A program made the translations under genes and the position numbers. From IMG/VR virus record IMGVR_UViG_3300032213_001381, positions 1-64,000 of that record: DNA of 64,000 bases; one strand, 5' to 3'. The notes under the pieces are model-generated. The model did not search any database, had not been told where the DNA came from, and saw only the letters and a program-made list of their open reading frames with translations. Every line of letters begins with the position of its first letter. The first letter of the stretch is position 1. This DNA is from a virus. Shown here piece by piece: positions 13,181 to 62,568 of this stretch.

Positions 13181-13933
13181 CTATAATTTTATCTTTCGTT
13201 TGTGATATTTTATAGTAGTTCCACTCAAATTATATTTAATTGAAAGTTCTTTAATTGTATATTGATTGGATAATATGTCTTGATATAATTCATGTTTTAT
13301 TTTTTTAATATTATTTTTTGAAACGGATATGTTTGTTTTTCTGTTTTCATTCATTGGACCTTGTTTTTTACCTGTTTTATTATTATCATAAGAGTAATTT
13401 ATTTTTCTTGAAGATAAGTTATTTCTCCTCTCTTCATATTTTATAGTTCCAATTTCAATTCCATATTTTTCAACAAACCAATTTAAAGTAAATCTACCTA
13501 ATGCTTTTTGTTTTTGAATTATAATACTATCATTATTATGTTTTTTTCCAAACATAGGATTATTTTCTCCCGAATACATTTCAGATAATTGTTGTCTTAT
13601 AGTTTCTTTATTTGGATTATGTGTAAAATTATCCCCTCCTGAAGAACTTAATGCAATATTATAACCAATATTGTTTCTATAAGGTTGAAATGTATCTAAA
13701 TAATACTGTTCTCTTTCCAATAATATTTGTTCATCATTTAATTCTTCAATTACTTCAAATTTAAAATTATCTTTGCCGTAAAAATTCCATGAATTTTGTA
13801 ATTTTTTATTTATGTGAATATTTTTATTTAATTCATTTATATGTTCCCACCATCTTCTGTCTATATCTTTTGATGAACCGATGTAAAATTTTCCGTTTTT
13901 TAAATTTGTAATTTTGTAAATACCTATTTTCAT
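13181..13933 (-). CDS. GIY-YIG homing endonuclease, free-standing
   Basis: A 250-residue nuclease. The catalytic domain shows GIYKITN (residues 4-10), KFYIGSS (15-21), Arg26/Arg27 with His31, and the glutamate in LLEREQYYLD (71-80). Then comes a GENNPMFGKKHN segment (NUMOD3 type, a DNA-binding motif common in these enzymes), and near the C-terminus IKELSIKYNLSGTTIKYHKRK, a helix-turn-helix-like element. It sits alone behind the capsid-gene terminator, between capsid and small head genes. No flanking gene is split, so it is not intron-borne here but resembles the free-standing Seg-type genes of T4. A TATTTATG variant box occurs 7 nt before the ATG. It probably promotes its own spread by cutting phages that lack it. 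Confidence 0.9.
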   Translation of the reverse strand: MKIGIYKITNLKNGKFYIGSSKDIDRRWWEHINELNKNIHINKKLQNSWNFYGKDNFKFEVIEELNDEQILLEREQYYLDTFQPYRNNIGYNIALSSSGGDNFTHNPNKETIRQQLSEMYSGENNPMFGKKHNNDSIIIQKQKALGRFTLNWFVEKYGIEIGTIKYEERRNNLSSRKINYSYDNNKTGKKQGPMNENRKTNISVSKNNIKKIKHELYQDILSNQYTIKELSIKYNLSGTTIKYHKRKIKL

Positions 13934-30294: not shown

Positions 30295-33200
30295 TTAACC
30301 ATTAGGGAAGGTTGCGCCTGTTGGTAGAATGTTGAAGTCAAGTACGATGAATTCAGCAGTCTTAGTTGGTTGTAGATAGATTTGTCCGTATAGGATGTTT
30401 CTATCAACCAAGTCAGGAGTATTATTTGTATCATCCATTACAACTTGGAAAGCGTACAATCCGCTACGTTGTTGTACTGATTCCAAATATGGATTTACGA
30501 TACTCAAGAAACGGTTTCTTGTAGCAGCTACATTTTGTTCAAATACCAAGAACTTACTGCTACTTGCAATAAACTTCTTGAGTGCGATTAACAATCTACG
30601 AACATTTACTCTGTCAAGAGCACTTGGTTGAATTTGAAGTGTCTTTTGACCCCATACACAGATACCTTGACCAGGGAATGCTGCGATTGGATTTACACGA
30701 CCTTCATACAGTGTATCTCTTTCACTGTGAGTTGTTCTATCTAGAACTTGAACTGCTTGTGCGATTCCACCACGATTTAAACCGGCTGGTGCGAACCATT
30801 CAGCAGCAGCATTGTCATTAGCAGCATAAACTGCTGGCATTACTACTGATGGAGGTACACTTACAATCTTGTTCAAGTTTGTATCTAGAATCTTAACCCA
30901 AGGATAATATGTAGAAACATAACTACTATCTACTGTTGATACATCGTTTACTGCTGCATCAATCAATCCTACTGTTTGATTGCTTGATGGGAACACGATG
31001 TTATCCATGATGTAGAAAGTATCACCACGGGCTTCACACATATCTGTTACCAAGTCAGTAACATAACTATGTTGTTCGTGGAAAATACCAGGTGTTACGA
31101 TCAAATTGATGTCAAATTCATCAGCATTTCCAAGAGCGCCTACACATTGTTTGTAAGCGATTGAACCTGCACTATTGATATTTGTACAATTCAAACCTTG
31201 AGTATTACCTGCGATAATATCAGATCCAACATTAATTGGAATTGCTGGAGATTGTCCATCAAATCCACCTTGGAAACCTACTACGAACTTACGCATCTTA
31301 ACATATGTAGCTTCGTTAGTTGCATCATATGTTGATGGGATACTACCACTCAATGAAGCAGCAAGTAATGAACCAGTTCCCATGTAAGTTGAACTTGTTG
31401 ATTCCAAATCAAATGCGATATTGTATCCTACAGTAGCACCAAATGGTAGAGGAGCAAAATATTGTTCAGTATCAATCTTTACACCAGCATTTACTGAACT
31501 TGTTGGATATAGAGCAGTCAATTCTGCATCAGCACCAAGTGGAATATCACTCATTACTGTACCGGATGGATATTTACCAGGAGCCAATCCATAAATACTT
31601 GCTTTACTGTATTGTACTACTGAAACATAATTTCCGATTGTACCTCCAAGTGGAGTAACATAAGCTTCGTTACCATATGGAACTGAAGATACTGGATATG
31701 GAACAGTATTCATTTCAATTCTGATATACTTACTCAAGTTTGTATAAGTACCGAATTCAATGATCTTACCAGCATAAGTAATGAAATTGTATCTATCACC
31801 AATTCTACGAGCAACAAAGTTTGAAGAATTTGGATCTAGATTCAAGTTTTGGAAGATTTCCAAATACTTAGGCTTCTTATCAGTATCACTATAAGCTCTT
31901 ACTGCGAGTGTGAATGAACCCCAGTCACTTCCGGCGACTGTACCAGCCAATTTAACATTGCTGATTTCAATCTTATATTGTTTATTTGTATTTGTACCAT
32001 CACTTAAAGTGTGTGCTTTAAACAATTGATATTTTGTTACTGAACCTGGATTTGCATTACCACTCCAAGGAGCAATTCCTTGTGAAAGAATCCAAGGTGT
32101 TGATGCGTTTGTTAATCCATATTGAGAATCACCTGCATTCAAGTTTGTTGAATATTGATCGGTAAACTTCAATACTTCTCCAGTTGCGAATGAACTAGAT
32201 GGTAGATATGCACCATATATTTTCCAACCAGGATTTCCAGTATTCAATTCATCATTTATTTTTTGAATTGAATCTTCAAATGTTTTGTACAAATATGCTG
32301 CTTCAATCTTGGCACCAGCGACTTGATCGTCTTGATTACCTACTGTTGCATTATTTCCAAATACATTTGTAATGTAATTTGAATCTGCTGGATTCAATGA
32401 GAAATCATAGTATCCAATCAAAGATGCATTTTGAGTTAATACCAATTGGAAATCACTCAATGATGTTGGATTTGTAGAACCACTATAAGGAGAAGCAGTT
32501 GTTGGTTTTTGAATCAATGATGAACCACTAAAGCCTGGAGCATTGAAACTACTATCCAATGTACCATATTGAGTATTTGCTAATACTGCTAATACTCTTG
32601 GTTTATTAGTTACTGCGGTTGGATTACATGGATCTGCTGGTGTAGTCCAGTTGGCATTAAATTCTCCTGAAATCTTACCAAATGAACCACTAATTACACC
32701 CTTAAGATAAATTTGTGCTCCACATCCAGTTGAAGATCTTAAAGCATAAATACTACCACTTACTAGTGTAATATTTGTTCCTGACAAATTTCCATCGGAA
32801 TTTACGATTGTTACACTATTTCCAAGTGATCCTGAGAAATTTGAAGTGGTTGATGTAGATTCTGCTATTGATTGTAACAATTTATCATTGTTTGTATAAT
32901 AACTACTTCCTTGGTAGGATGATGTTATATATACACTAGCAAAAGTAAGATCCGATACTGTAAAACTATAAGTTTGACCGCTGTTATATAAACTTCCATT
33001 AGGTGAAATAACACTTAATGCGGTATTATCTGCAGCAGTAGAATTAAATTTTGCAGTAAATGTAGCACCAGATACAAATGTTAATGTTCCACCAGTACCA
33101 CTTCCTGAAATATATGTAAATGTACTATTAATATTAGCAGTGTCATATGATACATATGATGATCCGCTGTTTAATGCACCAGCAGAACCGCTTCTTGGCC

Positions 33201-33543
33201 ATGTACCTGGTTGTGCCCAGATCACAAATGGATTAATTTGTCTATATCCAGTCAATGCACCCACACGACAAACAGTTACGAATCCTTTTTCATTCAAGTA
33301 TTCTTTTGCGGTGTATGGACCATAGTAAACACCATCAGCAACACCGAACTTTTCTTCAAGATCGGCAGTGTTAGTGATTAATGTTGGTGCGAATCCAGGA
33401 CCCTTTGGGAATGGAGCAAGTACTACTGCTCCAATTTCAGCAACACCTTGTGCTACTCCGCTTAGGTCATTTTCTCTTGTAAATACTCCTGGACTGACCA
33501 GACGGTCAACAGGACTAAATTTTCCTCCTTCAGTTATTGGCAT
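30295..33543 (-). CDS. 18: Tail sheath protein, gp18-like, enlarged
   Basis: A 1,082-residue contractile sheath protein; T4 gp18 has 659. The N-terminal handshake part (VDRLVSPGVFTRENDLSG, residues 12-29; LVAPFPKGPG-like turn) and the C-terminal core (LDRTTHSERDTLYEGRVNPIAAFPGQGICVWGQKTL, split here as LYEGRVNPIAAFPGQGICVW; RVNVRRLLIALKK; FLSIVNPYLESVQQRSGLYAF; VLDFNILPTGATF) are characteristic. About 400 extra residues, Ser/Gly/Thr-rich with beta patterns, fall between roughly residues 110 and 600, consistent with additional surface domains. A GAAAGGAA Shine-Dalgarno lies near the ATG and the codons are more C-rich than in neighbours, fitting high expression. The tail tube gene, adjacent in T4, is not here. 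Confidence 0.94.
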   Translation of the reverse strand: MPITEGGKFSPVDRLVSPGVFTRENDLSGVAQGVAEIGAVVLAPFPKGPGFAPTLITNTADLEEKFGVADGVYYGPYTAKEYLNEKGFVTVCRVGALTGYRQINPFVIWAQPGTWPRSGSAGALNSGSSYVSYDTANINSTFTYISGSGTGGTLTFVSGATFTAKFNSTAADNTALSVISPNGSLYNSGQTYSFTVSDLTFASVYITSSYQGSSYYTNNDKLLQSIAESTSTTSNFSGSLGNSVTIVNSDGNLSGTNITLVSGSIYALRSSTGCGAQIYLKGVISGSFGKISGEFNANWTTPADPCNPTAVTNKPRVLAVLANTQYGTLDSSFNAPGFSGSSLIQKPTTASPYSGSTNPTSLSDFQLVLTQNASLIGYYDFSLNPADSNYITNVFGNNATVGNQDDQVAGAKIEAAYLYKTFEDSIQKINDELNTGNPGWKIYGAYLPSSSFATGEVLKFTDQYSTNLNAGDSQYGLTNASTPWILSQGIAPWSGNANPGSVTKYQLFKAHTLSDGTNTNKQYKIEISNVKLAGTVAGSDWGSFTLAVRAYSDTDKKPKYLEIFQNLNLDPNSSNFVARRIGDRYNFITYAGKIIEFGTYTNLSKYIRIEMNTVPYPVSSVPYGNEAYVTPLGGTIGNYVSVVQYSKASIYGLAPGKYPSGTVMSDIPLGADAELTALYPTSSVNAGVKIDTEQYFAPLPFGATVGYNIAFDLESTSSTYMGTGSLLAASLSGSIPSTYDATNEATYVKMRKFVVGFQGGFDGQSPAIPINVGSDIIAGNTQGLNCTNINSAGSIAYKQCVGALGNADEFDINLIVTPGIFHEQHSYVTDLVTDMCEARGDTFYIMDNIVFPSSNQTVGLIDAAVNDVSTVDSSYVSTYYPWVKILDTNLNKIVSVPPSVVMPAVYAANDNAAAEWFAPAGLNRGGIAQAVQVLDRTTHSERDTLYEGRVNPIAAFPGQGICVWGQKTLQIQPSALDRVNVRRLLIALKKFIASSSKFLVFEQNVAATRNRFLSIVNPYLESVQQRSGLYAFQVVMDDTNNTPDLVDRNILYGQIYLQPTKTAEFIVLDFNILPTGATFPNG

Positions 33544-36689: not shown

Positions 36690-39600
36690 TTATACATAAT
36701 TAACTTTAGAGAACCCGTTTTCTTTCTTAATTTCAAGTCTATTGTCAACCATATCTCTCATACTGTCCAAATGACTAATAATCCACACGAAATCAAAATT
36801 AGTCTTTAAGAAAGCAAATAAAGCACCCATAGATGACAAGTTATCGGCATCTGCACATCCAAATCCTTCATCTATAGCTATAAAATTGGGTCTTGGTAGA
36901 TTGCTGATGTTAATTAACGCTACTCTCATAGCCAATGAACTAACAAATCGTTCCATACCACTAGCCAATTCTAGTGGCCAGCGTTTATCTTCATAATTAA
37001 TATGTGTAGTTACATTTTTACCATCAGTCTGTAAGATTACCGTAAATTCAACTATCTGGTTTAATATGTTATTAACTTCCTTTTCAATTGTTGGAAGAGC
37101 CTGACTAATCAATTCATATGGAATACCATCTCTAGAGATAGCATTTGTATATAATTGATATGCTTCATATTCAACTTCAAGTACCTTTACATCTTCAATT
37201 GACTTTTGAATTGTTTTTCTTTGTTCTTCTAATCCAGAAATCTTGGTATTATAACTAATAATGTTATTGTTCACATTCTTAATTTCAAAATCAATTGTTT
37301 TGATATTAGACTTAATTACATCAATTGTTTCTTTAATTGTCTTATTGAATTCAATCGCATCCTTGTTATTATAATATTCTTCAATCTGATTTTCAATATT
37401 AATAAGACTGTTCTGATCAGAACTAATCTTATTTGATATTTTTAGAATTTCATTATTTAATTTATTAATCTTGGATTGTGTTTCAACATGCAATTTATGC
37501 GTGTCATTATACTTTTTCCAATCATCTTTTATATAAGACAATTCATTTACTTTATTTTTAAGGTTTGTATATTCCCCAACAAGATTTTGAGCTTCAACTT
37601 TGTCCGATTCAAGTTCTTCTCTTGTTTTAATTGCATCTTTAACGAATACATTGGTTGTACAAAAAGTACAATTTGGATCATACTTATGTTCTTCCAATTT
37701 CTTTAATTTCTGTAATTTGGATGTAACAACAATCTTTTTCTTTTCAATACCTTGTTCTTTTTGACTCAATGAACTTTCTAATTCCTTAAGTGAATCATAC
37801 TTAGTTGTAATATCTTCAATATCATAATTCTTTATGATTTCATCGTATTCCTTAAATGTAGATTCAATAGATGATAATTGATTTTTATAAGAATCTAAAC
37901 TAGATGACTGTGTTGATATAGAATTACTCAATAAAACTTTCTTTGATTCAAGAGATACAATATCAACAATGTTACCATTAACATTGATAATTTTCTTTGT
38001 TTCTTCCAAAAGTCTTTCATTTTCAGATTCTCTTTTATCTGTTAATTTTTCTAAATTAACATTTTCATTTTTTAGCGAACCAGAAAAGTTCTCAATGTCA
38101 GAATTTAAATTCAATAACTTTTGAGTGTAATCAGTATTTTTAAAGTTCTTCAATAATGAATTGATTTCTTTGGTTTTATCAGACGCATCATTATATAAAC
38201 TATCAAATACGGTAAGTCCCATAAATTGAGCCAACAAATCTTTTCTTTCTGTTTGACCCATATCTACAAATGAACCTACTTTGTTATTCTGAATACTCAA
38301 TACAGTTAAAATAAAGTCATCATAAGTACCAACATAATCACGAATGATGTCATTAGTACTTCTACGAGCTTCTCCATTAAGTTCAACTACTTTACCACTC
38401 TCTTCTTTCCAGAACTTAACATCTACTTTAACATTACCTTTCTTATCTGCATTACCTTTTCTTTCAATAAAGAAATCTACACCATTAACTTCAAAATTAA
38501 ACTTACAACGGAATGACATCTTTTGTGTATTAAGAATATGAGATGCCTTAAATGCTCTATCACATTTATCAAAAATACAAAAAGATAAAGCAGACAATAT
38601 ACTTGATTTACCAGATGCGTTATTAGCAAATAGTCCAACTACATTATGCATTTTGGTAAAGTCAATAACATTTTCTTCACCATAACTAAACATATTATCA
38701 AATTCAAACTTCTTTGGTTTCCATCTGATATTTCTTACAACAGATTCTTTTTCCAAAGTTGCATTTAAATCCTTATTGATTTTATAAATCTTATCAAGTG
38801 TATCTTTTGAAGGATTAAAATTCTTATTGTTAAGATATTCTGTAATTAATTTATTTTGATAATCAACATCTGATACATCACTCAAATTAAAATTAGTATT
38901 ATCAATGATATTGCTAGATGATGAATTTGGTGAATCTACACGGACATAAGTCACTTCTGTAACATCAGATTTTTCTCTAATTGTTGACAATACAGATTTA
39001 ACTTCAGTCGCAACACTTTCAAAGCATTTCAATCTCAATCTTGCCTTTTTAGGCATATCAGAAATGTCAGTAAGCAATTTTCCTTTGCTTATTTCAGCTG
39101 TATAAAAACCATAATCATTTGGAATTTCAAAGTGTTTGAATACTTTGGTTTTTAAATCCCAGAATACAAATCCATGTCCTTTTAGTTCTTCTCCATGATT
39201 CTGTTGAATCAATGAACCTACATAGACAATGATTGGATCAGATTGGCTTAAAACTTGATGTCTGTGAATATCACCCAACAATACAATATCATGACCGTCA
39301 AAAATTTCATTTGTAATGGTTCTACTCGCAACTTTATATCCTACATCAGTAATTGCATTATTTACTGGTCCATGAAATAGAGCAATCTTGTAACGGGTTT
39401 CATTTAGATAAATCTTTGGAATATCCTTGAACTTGATATACTTATCTGGTTCATCAAATACGCTATAATGATTAAATAGAATATCTCCAAGAATATAAAG
39501 ACCTGAATCTTTTAGATAAAATAGATTTGTATGATTAATCGCATCAACAATAGGACTTAGACTATCCAATCTATTTTTATTAGCCAAAGTAGCATCATGA

Positions 39601-39875
39601 TTACCAGCGATTAATACGGTTGGTCTTCTGTCAGCAAGATTTTGTAGAAACTCTGTGGTGATCTTTACACATTCTGGTGAAAGATCACTCTTGGAATGTA
39701 AAACATCTCCTAAAACAGCAACTACAGTTTCTGCGGGTGTCCTTTCTACTGCTTTATACAATCTTTCAAATACTTGATTGTATTCATCGTGTCTTTTTGT
39801 AAGACGCAAATGAATATCAGCAATATGAAACACATTCTTGAACTCTTTTATATCCGATTTAAGATATTTTACCAT
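36690..39875 (-). CDS. SbcD-SbcC (gp47-gp46) single-chain recombination nuclease
   Basis: A 1,061-residue fusion of the two subunits of the Mre11-Rad50 / T4 gp47-gp46 complex, which resects DNA ends for recombination-dependent replication. Residues 14-310 are the phosphoesterase: ADIH (19-22), GDVLH (56-60), GNHD (91-94), HGP (168) and GDIHRH (201-206). After a short linker, the ATPase begins near 382: Walker A GLFANNASGKSS (414-425), two long coiled-coil arms with a zinc hook CTFC (Cys736, Cys739), the signature ASGMERF (971-977), Walker B FIAIDEGFG (998-1006) and the H-loop IISHLD (1032-1037). No stop or frameshift separates the parts. It follows the primase gene by 1 nt. Confidence 0.93.
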   Translation of the reverse strand: MVKYLKSDIKEFKNVFHIADIHLRLTKRHDEYNQVFERLYKAVERTPAETVVAVLGDVLHSKSDLSPECVKITTEFLQNLADRRPTVLIAGNHDATLANKNRLDSLSPIVDAINHTNLFYLKDSGLYILGDILFNHYSVFDEPDKYIKFKDIPKIYLNETRYKIALFHGPVNNAITDVGYKVASRTITNEIFDGHDIVLLGDIHRHQVLSQSDPIIVYVGSLIQQNHGEELKGHGFVFWDLKTKVFKHFEIPNDYGFYTAEISKGKLLTDISDMPKKARLRLKCFESVATEVKSVLSTIREKSDVTEVTYVRVDSPNSSSSNIIDNTNFNLSDVSDVDYQNKLITEYLNNKNFNPSKDTLDKIYKINKDLNATLEKESVVRNIRWKPKKFEFDNMFSYGEENVIDFTKMHNVVGLFANNASGKSSILSALSFCIFDKCDRAFKASHILNTQKMSFRCKFNFEVNGVDFFIERKGNADKKGNVKVDVKFWKEESGKVVELNGEARRSTNDIIRDYVGTYDDFILTVLSIQNNKVGSFVDMGQTERKDLLAQFMGLTVFDSLYNDASDKTKEINSLLKNFKNTDYTQKLLNLNSDIENFSGSLKNENVNLEKLTDKRESENERLLEETKKIINVNGNIVDIVSLESKKVLLSNSISTQSSSLDSYKNQLSSIESTFKEYDEIIKNYDIEDITTKYDSLKELESSLSQKEQGIEKKKIVVTSKLQKLKKLEEHKYDPNCTFCTTNVFVKDAIKTREELESDKVEAQNLVGEYTNLKNKVNELSYIKDDWKKYNDTHKLHVETQSKINKLNNEILKISNKISSDQNSLINIENQIEEYYNNKDAIEFNKTIKETIDVIKSNIKTIDFEIKNVNNNIISYNTKISGLEEQRKTIQKSIEDVKVLEVEYEAYQLYTNAISRDGIPYELISQALPTIEKEVNNILNQIVEFTVILQTDGKNVTTHINYEDKRWPLELASGMERFVSSLAMRVALINISNLPRPNFIAIDEGFGCADADNLSSMGALFAFLKTNFDFVWIISHLDSMRDMVDNRLEIKKENGFSKVNYV

Positions 39876-39876
39876 A

Positions 39877-40827
39877 TTATATTCTTAGTTTTAACTTAAA
39901 CAACTTTTCGAAATCCATAGTATCACAACTATCTATCATTTGCCAAGTTTTTTCAAAACCTATTACACTTGGATCTTTACCATCTAACATTACTAGTTTT
40001 GTTGGAATACTATTTTTAATTAGAAATTCACATATTTTGATGGAATCTTTTATCGCATCATTGTCTAATAAAATATGTACCATCGGAACATCATTTTCTA
40101 ATAATTTTAATTTTAACTGTTTGCTCATTGTCTTTCCAAACAATGGTATGCAGTTATTTTTAACTGCAATTGCATCAAATGGACCTTCAACCAAAGTAAT
40201 CGGTTGTTCAAAGTTAATAAACAATTCAAACCCAATTATATTCTTTGATGCTGAACAACTAACATATTTTAATCCTTTGGTTTCAAAAAAACTTCTAGCG
40301 GTGTAGAAATTTAATGTACCGTTACAATCATATGATGGTATAACTACTCTGTTTTTAAGATCGCCTTCTGTACAATATCCAATATTATATCTTACAATAT
40401 CATTTTTAGTAATATTTCTAGATTTAAGATATTTTACTGCATGTTTATATTCCAATTCGTTTATTGGTTCACTTATAGGTTTAAATTCTTTGGGTAATCT
40501 TACCAATTTTTGTTCTTCTGGTTCATCTTCAAATGAAATAACAAAATCGGCAATCGGCTTTTTAGAAAACGATTTCTGACTTAATCCGATACATGTGTAA
40601 TATTCACTGGGCGCATTTAGTTTCTTAAATAAAGTCTTGAAACTTGTTCCACTGAATCCACATACCCAACAATTATATTTTCCTGTATGTAAATTGATTT
40701 CTAGTTTTCTTTTATAATGTTTACAAGAAGGACAATGATAAACTGCATCAGTTCCCTTACGAATCTTGGGAGTCTGATTCAACAGTTTATTTAAAACGGA
40801 TACTATTGTCTCTTGATATAACAACAT
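39877..40827 (-). CDS. DnaG-type primase
   Basis: A 316-residue primase counted from the ATG at 40827 (a TTG just upstream is less likely). The N-terminal zinc-binding domain has HCPSC (Cys32, Cys35) and NCWVCG (Cys53, Cys56), as in CHC2-type fingers. The Toprim catalytic domain shows LVEGPFDA (Glu214, Asp218) and LLDNDA (Asp255, Asp257). The central part holds AVKYLKSRNIT and GYCTEGDLKNRVVIP, typical of the RNA polymerase domain entry. It would make primers for lagging-strand synthesis, the role of T4 gp61, though the layout is nearer bacterial DnaG. It lies between the DUF2786-like gene and the SbcCD fusion in a replication-recombination unit. Confidence 0.9.
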   Translation of the reverse strand: MLLYQETIVSVLNKLLNQTPKIRKGTDAVYHCPSCKHYKRKLEINLHTGKYNCWVCGFSGTSFKTLFKKLNAPSEYYTCIGLSQKSFSKKPIADFVISFEDEPEEQKLVRLPKEFKPISEPINELEYKHAVKYLKSRNITKNDIVRYNIGYCTEGDLKNRVVIPSYDCNGTLNFYTARSFFETKGLKYVSCSASKNIIGFELFINFEQPITLVEGPFDAIAVKNNCIPLFGKTMSKQLKLKLLENDVPMVHILLDNDAIKDSIKICEFLIKNSIPTKLVMLDGKDPSVIGFEKTWQMIDSCDTMDFEKLFKLKLRI

Positions 40828-40851
40828 CAATTATACTTTACAGTAAAACTT

Positions 40852-41514
40852 TTATTCTATCAACTTTTTATTTGGATCATTTTTAATCCACGGATTTTTA
40901 TCTAATGCAACTGCAATCTTCATCAATTTGATCGGATCAATTGGTTTTTCATCAACAACATCTTCGGATTTATCTTCGGAATTTTTGTTTTCATCTGATG
41001 TTTTATCATCATTTCCTTCGGTTTTTTGTTCCTTTTCTTCCTTTTTAACATCTTCGGGTGGAGTTGGTTGAATATCTTGTTGAATATTTTCTTGAGTATA
41101 TGTTTGATGTTTTGGGATATAACCAATCGCATGTCTAGAAATTATTCCTTGCATCAAATATCTTTTATAATCATTGTACATGTCTCTATAATATTCAAAT
41201 GCGTTATTAATATTTTCATATTCTGATTGAGTAATATGAATACAAATACAATTATTTTTTTCTTTCCATTTGAATCCAGGAACATCCAATATCATACATG
41301 ATACATTGATTAGCAAATCTCTTTCATTTTTATCATTTATAACGATGTAATAATTTTTAGTTTCTTCTGATATAGATAATTCACTATCGGATATATTATA
41401 TTTTTGACATATCCGTTCTAACTTTTCTTTAGCCGCATTTCTTTCACCACCATTACCTTTTTCGGCTAATGCTTTTATCTTTTTTGCTAATTCTAATATT
41501 TTGTTGCGGTTCAT
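40852..41514 (-). CDS. DUF2786-like N-terminal domain protein
   Basis: A 220-residue protein from the ATG at 41514 (MNRNKILELAKKI); a GTG at 41529 is the alternative. Residues 5-48, with ILELAKKIKALAEKGNGGERNAAKEKLERICQKYNI read in two parts (KKIKALAEKGNGGERNA and KLERICQKYNISDSEL), fit the DUF2786 helical domain found in phage and bacterial DNA-associated proteins. A middle part (YYIVINDKNERDLLINVSC) and a very acidic, Lys/Glu-rich disordered tail follow. It overlaps the RuvC-like gene by 62 nt. Function is unknown; context suggests DNA metabolism. Confidence 0.7.
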   Translation of the reverse strand: MNRNKILELAKKIKALAEKGNGGERNAAKEKLERICQKYNISDSELSISEETKNYYIVINDKNERDLLINVSCMILDVPGFKWKEKNNCICIHITQSEYENINNAFEYYRDMYNDYKRYLMQGIISRHAIGYIPKHQTYTQENIQQDIQPTPPEDVKKEEKEQKTEGNDDKTSDENKNSEDKSEDVVDEKPIDPIKLMKIAVALDKNPWIKNDPNKKLIE

Positions 41515-42019
41515 CTTTGTATAATGCACATACTATACCATCATACATATCACCGTTTCTTTCATCCCAATTACCCTTTTTATTAAGAACCGTAAATTTA
41601 ACTACATCTGGACATAGTGATTCTAATTCAGATTTAACAAAGTCTTTGGATTTGATGCCTTTAATTCTACATTTACCAAACAATTGTTTACGCATAGTGT
41701 TTACTGATAACAAATTTACCTTGACTTTAAAGTGTTCTTCAATAATATAAGCAAATACTGCATTATGCCGGGCTAATGTAATAATAACTTGTTGTGAAGT
41801 AAATCCACCAGCAAAACCGCTTAGAGCAGCTTCTAAATTAATAACAGTAATATCTTTGATTAGTGGATTTTTCTCTAACTCTGATATAACAAAAAAAGTT
41901 TTTTCTTTTGTTGTCTCAAACTTTTTGGTATCAATATAACCGGCATCTAAGACTTTTCCGTCTTTACTAAATGCCCAACCTGTAACTGATGTAGATGAAT
42001 CTAAACCTAATATAAACAT
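41453..42019 (-). CDS. RuvC-like Holliday junction resolvase
   Basis: A 188-residue RNase H-fold nuclease. Hallmarks are ILGLDSSTSVTGWA with Asp7, VINLEAALSGF with Glu63, and the C-terminal GDMYDGIVCALY with Asp157/Asp160. This is the RuvC arrangement, replacing the unrelated T4 resolvase gp49. It would cut branched DNA from recombination before packaging. The start codon lies inside a 9-bp inverted repeat (42017-42039) directly after the upstream stop, so initiation may be controlled by folding or by coupling. It is followed by the overlapping DUF2786-like gene, primase and SbcCD fusion, a coherent recombination cluster. Confidence 0.88.
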   Translation of the reverse strand: MFILGLDSSTSVTGWAFSKDGKVLDAGYIDTKKFETTKEKTFFVISELEKNPLIKDITVINLEAALSGFAGGFTSQQVIITLARHNAVFAYIIEEHFKVKVNLLSVNTMRKQLFGKCRIKGIKSKDFVKSELESLCPDVVKFTVLNKKGNWDERNGDMYDGIVCALYKDEPQQNIRISKKDKSISRKR

Positions 42020-61954: not shown

Positions 61955-62437
61955 TTATTTAATCGTAACTTTTCTTATTTCAGGTGTCGCAGGCTTTACT
62001 TTATTGAGAGTAATTAATAGAATACCGTTTTCAAACGTGGCTGATACAGTATCTTTTTCTATGTTATCTCCCAAAGTAAATGATCTACGAAAACTAGATC
62101 GTTTTAATTCTCTTCTGATGTATTTTCCACCTTGAGAATCTGTAACATTTTTACTTTTACCACCGCTGACAGTGAGTACATTCTGTTCCACTTCAACATT
62201 TACATCTTGTTTACTTAAACCTGGAACTTCAGCTTCTATAACAACTTTATCACTGTAATCAATAACATCTACTCTTGGATACGATCCTTTTTCAAAAAAG
62301 TCTGCACCAAAGTCTTGACTAAAATTGGGAGCATTTGCTTTGAAGAATTCATCAAAAATTTGATCAAATGGTGTTAAAAACTCATCACGATGAACTGCAC
62401 GAAATAACGGATTTGTTTGATATTTTACTACTGACAT
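61955..62437 (-). CDS. Small heat-shock protein Hsp20
   Basis: A 160-residue alpha-crystallin-type chaperone. The ATG at 62437 (MSVVKYQTNPLF) is chosen because a GAAAGGAAA Shine-Dalgarno precedes it by about 8 nt; an in-frame start at 62500 lies within the leader. The alpha-crystallin domain runs from PRVDVIDYSDKVVIEAEVPG (residues 53-72) to FENGILLITLNK, containing the G-x-L motif; the C-terminal tail has the I-x-V anchor RKVTIK. Hsp20 genes are typical of aquatic T4-like phages and are thought to aid virion protein folding or host stress. A terminator follows, so it is a single-gene unit. Confidence 0.93.
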   Translation of the reverse strand: MSVVKYQTNPLFRAVHRDEFLTPFDQIFDEFFKANAPNFSQDFGADFFEKGSYPRVDVIDYSDKVVIEAEVPGLSKQDVNVEVEQNVLTVSGGKSKNVTDSQGGKYIRRELKRSSFRRSFTLGDNIEKDTVSATFENGILLITLNKVKPATPEIRKVTIK

Positions 62438-62568
62438 ATATATTTTTCCTTTCTTAAATGGTCTATTTAGACCCATTTTCATGTACTCTTTTTGGGACAT
62501 ACACGGATAACTGTTTTAGTCATCTAAATTATATATATCATTTAATTGAGAAAAAATTCAAATTTTTC

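Follow-up and report, generated by a model that had tools for sequence, protein, structure and literature searches.

A predicted single-chain Mre11-Rad50 nuclease-ATPase in uncultured contractile-tailed phages

The fusion gene and its domains

In this study we analysed a window of 64,000 nucleotides, positions 1 to 64,000 of the IMG/VR record IMGVR_UViG_3300032213_001381, a 68.9-kb virus fragment of environmental metagenome origin that carries genes for the head, tail sheath and baseplate of a phage. On the minus strand of this window lies a gene which the ORF listing gives as a single stop-free frame with an ATG start, and whose product matches both an Mre11-like (SbcD) nuclease and a Rad50-like (SbcC) ATPase. 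The gene, its parts and two upstream neighbours are as follows.

36690..39875, minus strand: Mre11/Rad50 (SbcD/SbcC) fusion gene, 1061 aa (ORF with Pfam, PHROG and phmmer matches)
39096..39875, minus strand: Mre11-like phosphoesterase, residues 1-260 (Pfam at 15-205, residue conservation, model)
within 39096..39875, minus strand: phosphoesterase motif residues D20/H22, D57/H60, N92/H93, H168, D202/H204
38757..39095, minus strand: Mre11 capping region and helix-loop-helix, residues 261-373 (profile match to 3tho_B, DSSP on the model)
38727..38756, minus strand: join, a loop of about 10 residues, 374-383 (DSSP on the model, low dN in 374-393, no conserved internal start)
38196..38726, minus strand: Rad50-like ATPase N-lobe, residues 384-560 (Pfam, phmmer and profile matches)
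38604..38627, minus strand: Walker A ANNASGKS with Ala at 417 and 420, residues 417-424 (alignment of relatives)
37671..38195, minus strand: ascending coiled coil, residues 561-735 (helices in the model)
37659..37670, minus strand: zinc hook CTFC, residues 736-739 (Cys invariant in 116/116)
37140..37658, minus strand: descending coiled coil, residues 740-912 (helices in the model)
36690..37139, minus strand: Rad50-like ATPase C-lobe, residues 913-1061 plus stop (phmmer, profile match, conservation)
within 36690..37139, minus strand: signature SGME 972-975, Walker B D1002-E1003, D-loop D1009, H-loop H1035
39877..40830, minus strand: DnaG-like primase directly upstream of the fusion, a conserved neighbour (phrog_47, E 7e-40)
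41453..42019, minus strand: RuvC-like Holliday junction resolvase (phrog_827, E 4.9e-6)

Pfam, PHROGs and phmmer assign the first 205-260 residues to a calcineurin-like phosphoesterase and the stretch from about residue 389 to the end to a Rad50/SbcC ATPase. The Pfam Metallophos family covers residues 15-205 (E 3.5e-12), an SbcD-like PHROG profile residues 10-363 (E 6.5e-25) and an SbcC-like one residues 258-1060 (E 1.2e-52), and phmmer recovers solved Rad50 and SbcCD chains. Weaker matches were also seen. When the whole fusion protein was searched, SMC_N and AAA_23 matched the ATPase start below their Pfam cut-offs, whereas AAA_23 scored above its cut-off for the same frame in a search of the window's own record; the NCBIfam SbcC, SbcD and Rad50 models matched below their cut-offs. 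A profile built from 39 relatives matches E. coli SbcC (6s6v_C, E 2e-28) and T. maritima Mre11 (3qg5/3tho), including its helix-loop-helix. Profile positions 193-372 align with residues 204-374 of 3tho_B, and since this match reaches residue 372 the nuclease half retains both the capping region and the Rad50-binding helix-loop-helix. The Mre11/SbcD unit then comprises the nuclease (1 to about 260), the capping region (about 261-313) and the helix-loop-helix (337-373).

An Mre11-like N-terminal and a Rad50-like C-terminal domain thus share one frame, which is the arrangement of R555-type fusions. This gene is the sole Mre11- or Rad50-type locus found in the 68.9-kb partial record, where a search for a second Mre11 or Rad50 gene found none. 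The initial annotation had described the locus as a single-chain Mre11-Rad50 fusion with the complete motifs of both enzymes, and on both points our analysis agrees with it.

Elsewhere in the window we observed a GIY-YIG homing endonuclease gene adjoining the major head protein gene (13181-13933), a long tail sheath protein (1082 aa, 30295-33543) whose known sheath domains are confined to roughly the last third, and a phage gene for an Hsp20-type small heat shock protein (61955-62500).

Conservation of the fused frame

A gene of this kind could result from an assembly error in which two neighbouring genes were merged at the join. In contigs of several other IMG/VR assemblies the encoded protein is 99-99.5% identical and lies in a single unbroken frame, and among the fetched loci the same fusion is present in 116 distinct full-length relatives, with identities as low as about 40%. 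It is also carried by a cultured phage, the Microcystis phage Mel-JY01. As independent contigs keep the frame, we reject an assembly chimera, which we consider extremely improbable. We conclude that the gene is a genuine fusion, which many uncultured phages have kept and which looks functional. A search for relatives on plasmids returned weak two-gene or ATPase matches and nothing else.

The fusion gene as a whole, join included, is under purifying selection. Against close relatives its dN/dS is about 0.06-0.11, and the join region (residues 374-393) has very few amino-acid changes, with a dN of 0-0.08. None of the fetched relatives is split at the join by a stop or a frameshift. Interruptions located elsewhere were seen in four distinct copies: L002 has an insert carrying an endonuclease gene near residue 210, L131 a frameshift near residue 216, L031/L092 (one contig) a deletion near residues 761-778, and L119 a stop at about residue 940.

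The join could also contain an internal start yielding an extra Rad50-like subunit, in which case fused and free ATPase would both occur in the cell. The TTG at codon 374 of the window's gene sits 13 bases after AAGGA, and an ATG at codon 395 is nearly universal among relatives. But the TTG is not conserved, and M395 lies downstream of the first ATPase strand (384-393) and in nearly all relatives follows no Shine-Dalgarno-like word. Such words precede start codons within residues 366-398 in 7 of 107 distinct relatives, no more commonly than elsewhere in the gene, the background being 415 of 5489 (7.6%) of all start-type codons in the fusion genes. No conserved internal start was found in residues 366-398 of these 107 relatives, and lacking a conserved Shine-Dalgarno-like signal this explanation was rejected as very unlikely.

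The uncultured contractile-tailed phages to which the fusion belongs form a large clade. In a tree of 33 trimmed concatenated sequences, in which the two-gene outgroups are few, distant and on long branches and the root was set by choice, all fused forms group together, apart from the two-gene forms of T4, a T5-like phage, Kayvirus, a Stenotrophomonas phage and Ilyobacter (support 99-100). The fused gene of L003, a 735-kb phage, is 25% identical and takes a position between the two-gene forms and the main fused clade. This topology is consistent with a single fusion event in this contractile-tailed phage lineage; for Mre11/Rad50 fusions overall, Yoshida et al. 2011 concluded that they arose more than once (PMC3175470). 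In T4 (47 before 46) and in T5-like phages the gene order equals the domain order of the fusion, which probably originated by read-through from a nuclease gene into the ATPase gene next to it.

Active sites and the state of the nuclease

Both halves carry the motifs expected of their families. The Mre11/SbcD half has phosphoesterase motifs I-V with their metal ligands, including a substitution at D202 (D20xH22, GD57xxH60, GN92H93D, H168 and GD202xH204). In the Rad50/SbcC half are found Walker A (417-424), the Q-loop (Q529), the CxxC hook (C736xxC739), the signature (SGME, 972-975), Walker B (D1002-E1003), the D-loop (D1009) and the H-loop (H1035). Among the 116 distinct relatives D20, D57, N92, H168, D202 and H204 of the nuclease and K423, Q529, C736, C739, S972, D1002, E1003 and H1035 of the ATPase are invariant. 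H93 and the H60 of motif II (GDxxH) are each kept in 115 of the 116.

The Walker A had initially been described as having Ala in place of one Gly. The substitution is there, but two glycines are replaced rather than one (A417 and A420), while G422-K423-S424 is invariant. Position 417 is Ala in 113 and position 420 in 104 of the 116 relatives, so that the Ala-rich Walker A is, by this alignment, a trait of the fused family.

The metal site of the nuclease is also unusual. All fused relatives have Asp (GDIH) at the ligand position that is H206 in P. furiosus Mre11, and in 21 of the 116 (L054-L075, L156, L165, L167) DxQ replaces DxH in motif I, which from the alignment is a natural metal-ligand variant. 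Because of the Asp and, in these 21, the Gln, it is not certain that the predicted nuclease activity extends to all members. These same substitutions raise the question whether the nuclease half is inactive and only serves as the scaffold of an SMC-like DNA tether. Against this, D20, D57, N92, H168 and H204 are invariant and H93 nearly so, dN is low across residues 1-260 (0.022-0.086), and the Mre11 of a Vibrio T5-like phage likewise has GDxH. Asp is moreover able to bind Mn. It is therefore very unlikely that the nuclease half is inactive.

The nuclease domain is also where inserts were observed. In L130 (4001-8149 of IMGVR_UViG_3300037042_006844) an in-frame intein of about 320 residues lies exactly in motif III, with junctions GNHD|C...GN|CMLSN and a Pfam Intein_splicing match just under the cut-off (E 1.5e-7), and the start of L166 resembles an intein end at the same site. 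In L002 (4701-5618 of LR756508.1, a 484-kb phage) a gene of 305 codons, weakly matching a TnsA-like endonuclease, interrupts the domain after motif V. An Rfam search of L002 and the window gave no match and found no intron at this insert, which may represent either a split gene or an unrecognised intron. L002, L120 and L131 share an extra loop of similar pattern after motif V, the last nuclease motif, approximately EDELExYLxSGxxEL in L002 and L131.

Assembly, role and comparison with known systems

Our structure is an AlphaFold2 single-chain model from 39 sequences, with a mean pLDDT of 82.1, a pTM of 0.44 and its weakest part at residues 315-328. In this model DSSP assigns helices at 337-350 and 357-373, then a loop of about 10 residues (374-383), and the first ATPase strand from 384. 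In the T. maritima complex the Mre11 C-terminus lies about 28 A from the Rad50 N-terminus, a distance equal to 9-12 residues (PMC3175470). As the modelled loop is of this length, the fusion appears to link termini which are side by side in the two-chain complex anyway. The initial annotation suggested that M2R2 assembly is limited by a fixed 1:1 chain. We find no support for this, since M2R2 is already 1:1 and the linker length would suit the two-chain geometry.

The gene neighbourhood points to a function. One base separates the fusion gene from the preceding DnaG-like primase, and the RuvC-like resolvase lies further upstream. A primase is found upstream within 400 bases in 101 of the 107 fused loci with enough flank. 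For this tally 113 loci were counted and six two-gene outgroup loci set aside; the Kayvirus outgroup L172, with its primase downstream, was among the 102 close loci, hence 101. The primase is also adjacent in Mel-JY01 and in contigs that had been binned with bacterial and archaeal genomes. We identified no RecA/UvsX, polymerase or helicase in the 68.9-kb partial record. With a primase in front and a RuvC-like resolvase nearby, the role of the fusion is most likely DNA-end resection for recombination-dependent replication, as for T4 gp46/47.

The best explanation, and one that we hold to be highly probable, is that these contractile-tailed phages encode a single-chain Mre11-Rad50 nuclease-ATPase of the R555-like fusion group which resects DNA ends. 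Two chains would pair via their ATPase heads and CxxC hooks into M2R2, with each helix-loop-helix binding the coiled-coil root beside its own head. ATP binding and hydrolysis would make the heads open and close and would gate the nuclease, and the enzyme would process DNA ends for phage replication as gp46/gp47 do in T4. The fused clade might follow rules of its own, in that obligatory own-head pairing, the Ala-for-Gly Walker A and a metal site of Asp and His (in some, Gln) would bring a different ATP gating or metal use than in two-gene Mre11-Rad50. We see this as a speculative possibility, with the odds clearly against it.

E. coli SbcCD and archaeal Rad50-Mre11 match both halves of the fusion at the sequence level, but are encoded by two genes. 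T4 gp47/gp46 share with it the two activities, the 5' to 3' gene order and a viral replication context. In contrast, the T4 proteins come from two genes with two small genes between them, have a shorter coiled coil, and read GHFH and GRNGGGKST where the phage fusion has GDIH and ANNASGKSS. The protein WWT39521.1 of the cultured phage Mel-JY01 is fused as well (1066 aa, about 40% identical over 2-1060). It is annotated only as 'AAA domain containing protein', and one small gene lies between it and the primase just upstream. A one-gene enzyme of about 1060 residues with a fixed partner would be convenient for structure work, and suits asking whether Mre11 and Rad50 must exchange partners.

The phage fusion is not a new kind of protein, as fused proteins of the R555 type have been known since 2011. 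In that year Yoshida, Claverie and Ogata reported Mre11/Rad50 fusions from Mimivirus (R555), from a Bacillus phage and plasmids, and from bacteria and eukaryotes. They also found R555 homologues to be abundant in aquatic viral metagenomes, and noted phage primases on some R555-like metagenome scaffolds (PMC3175470). No further description of phage fusions after 2011 was found in our literature search, most subscription journals being outside its coverage. Like R555, the phage family has the nuclease first and the ATPase second, retains the capping region and the helix-loop-helix, and has a short linker. It also shares the substitutions published for R555, GDxxH for GDxxD and Asp for H206 of P. 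furiosus Mre11 (PMC3175470). Unlike R555, which has 1351 aa, the phage fusion has 1061 aa and comes with the full gene context of a tailed phage. Our results thereby add a clear genome context and more than 100 full-length relatives to a fusion for which scattered cases and short metagenome reads had been the main sources.
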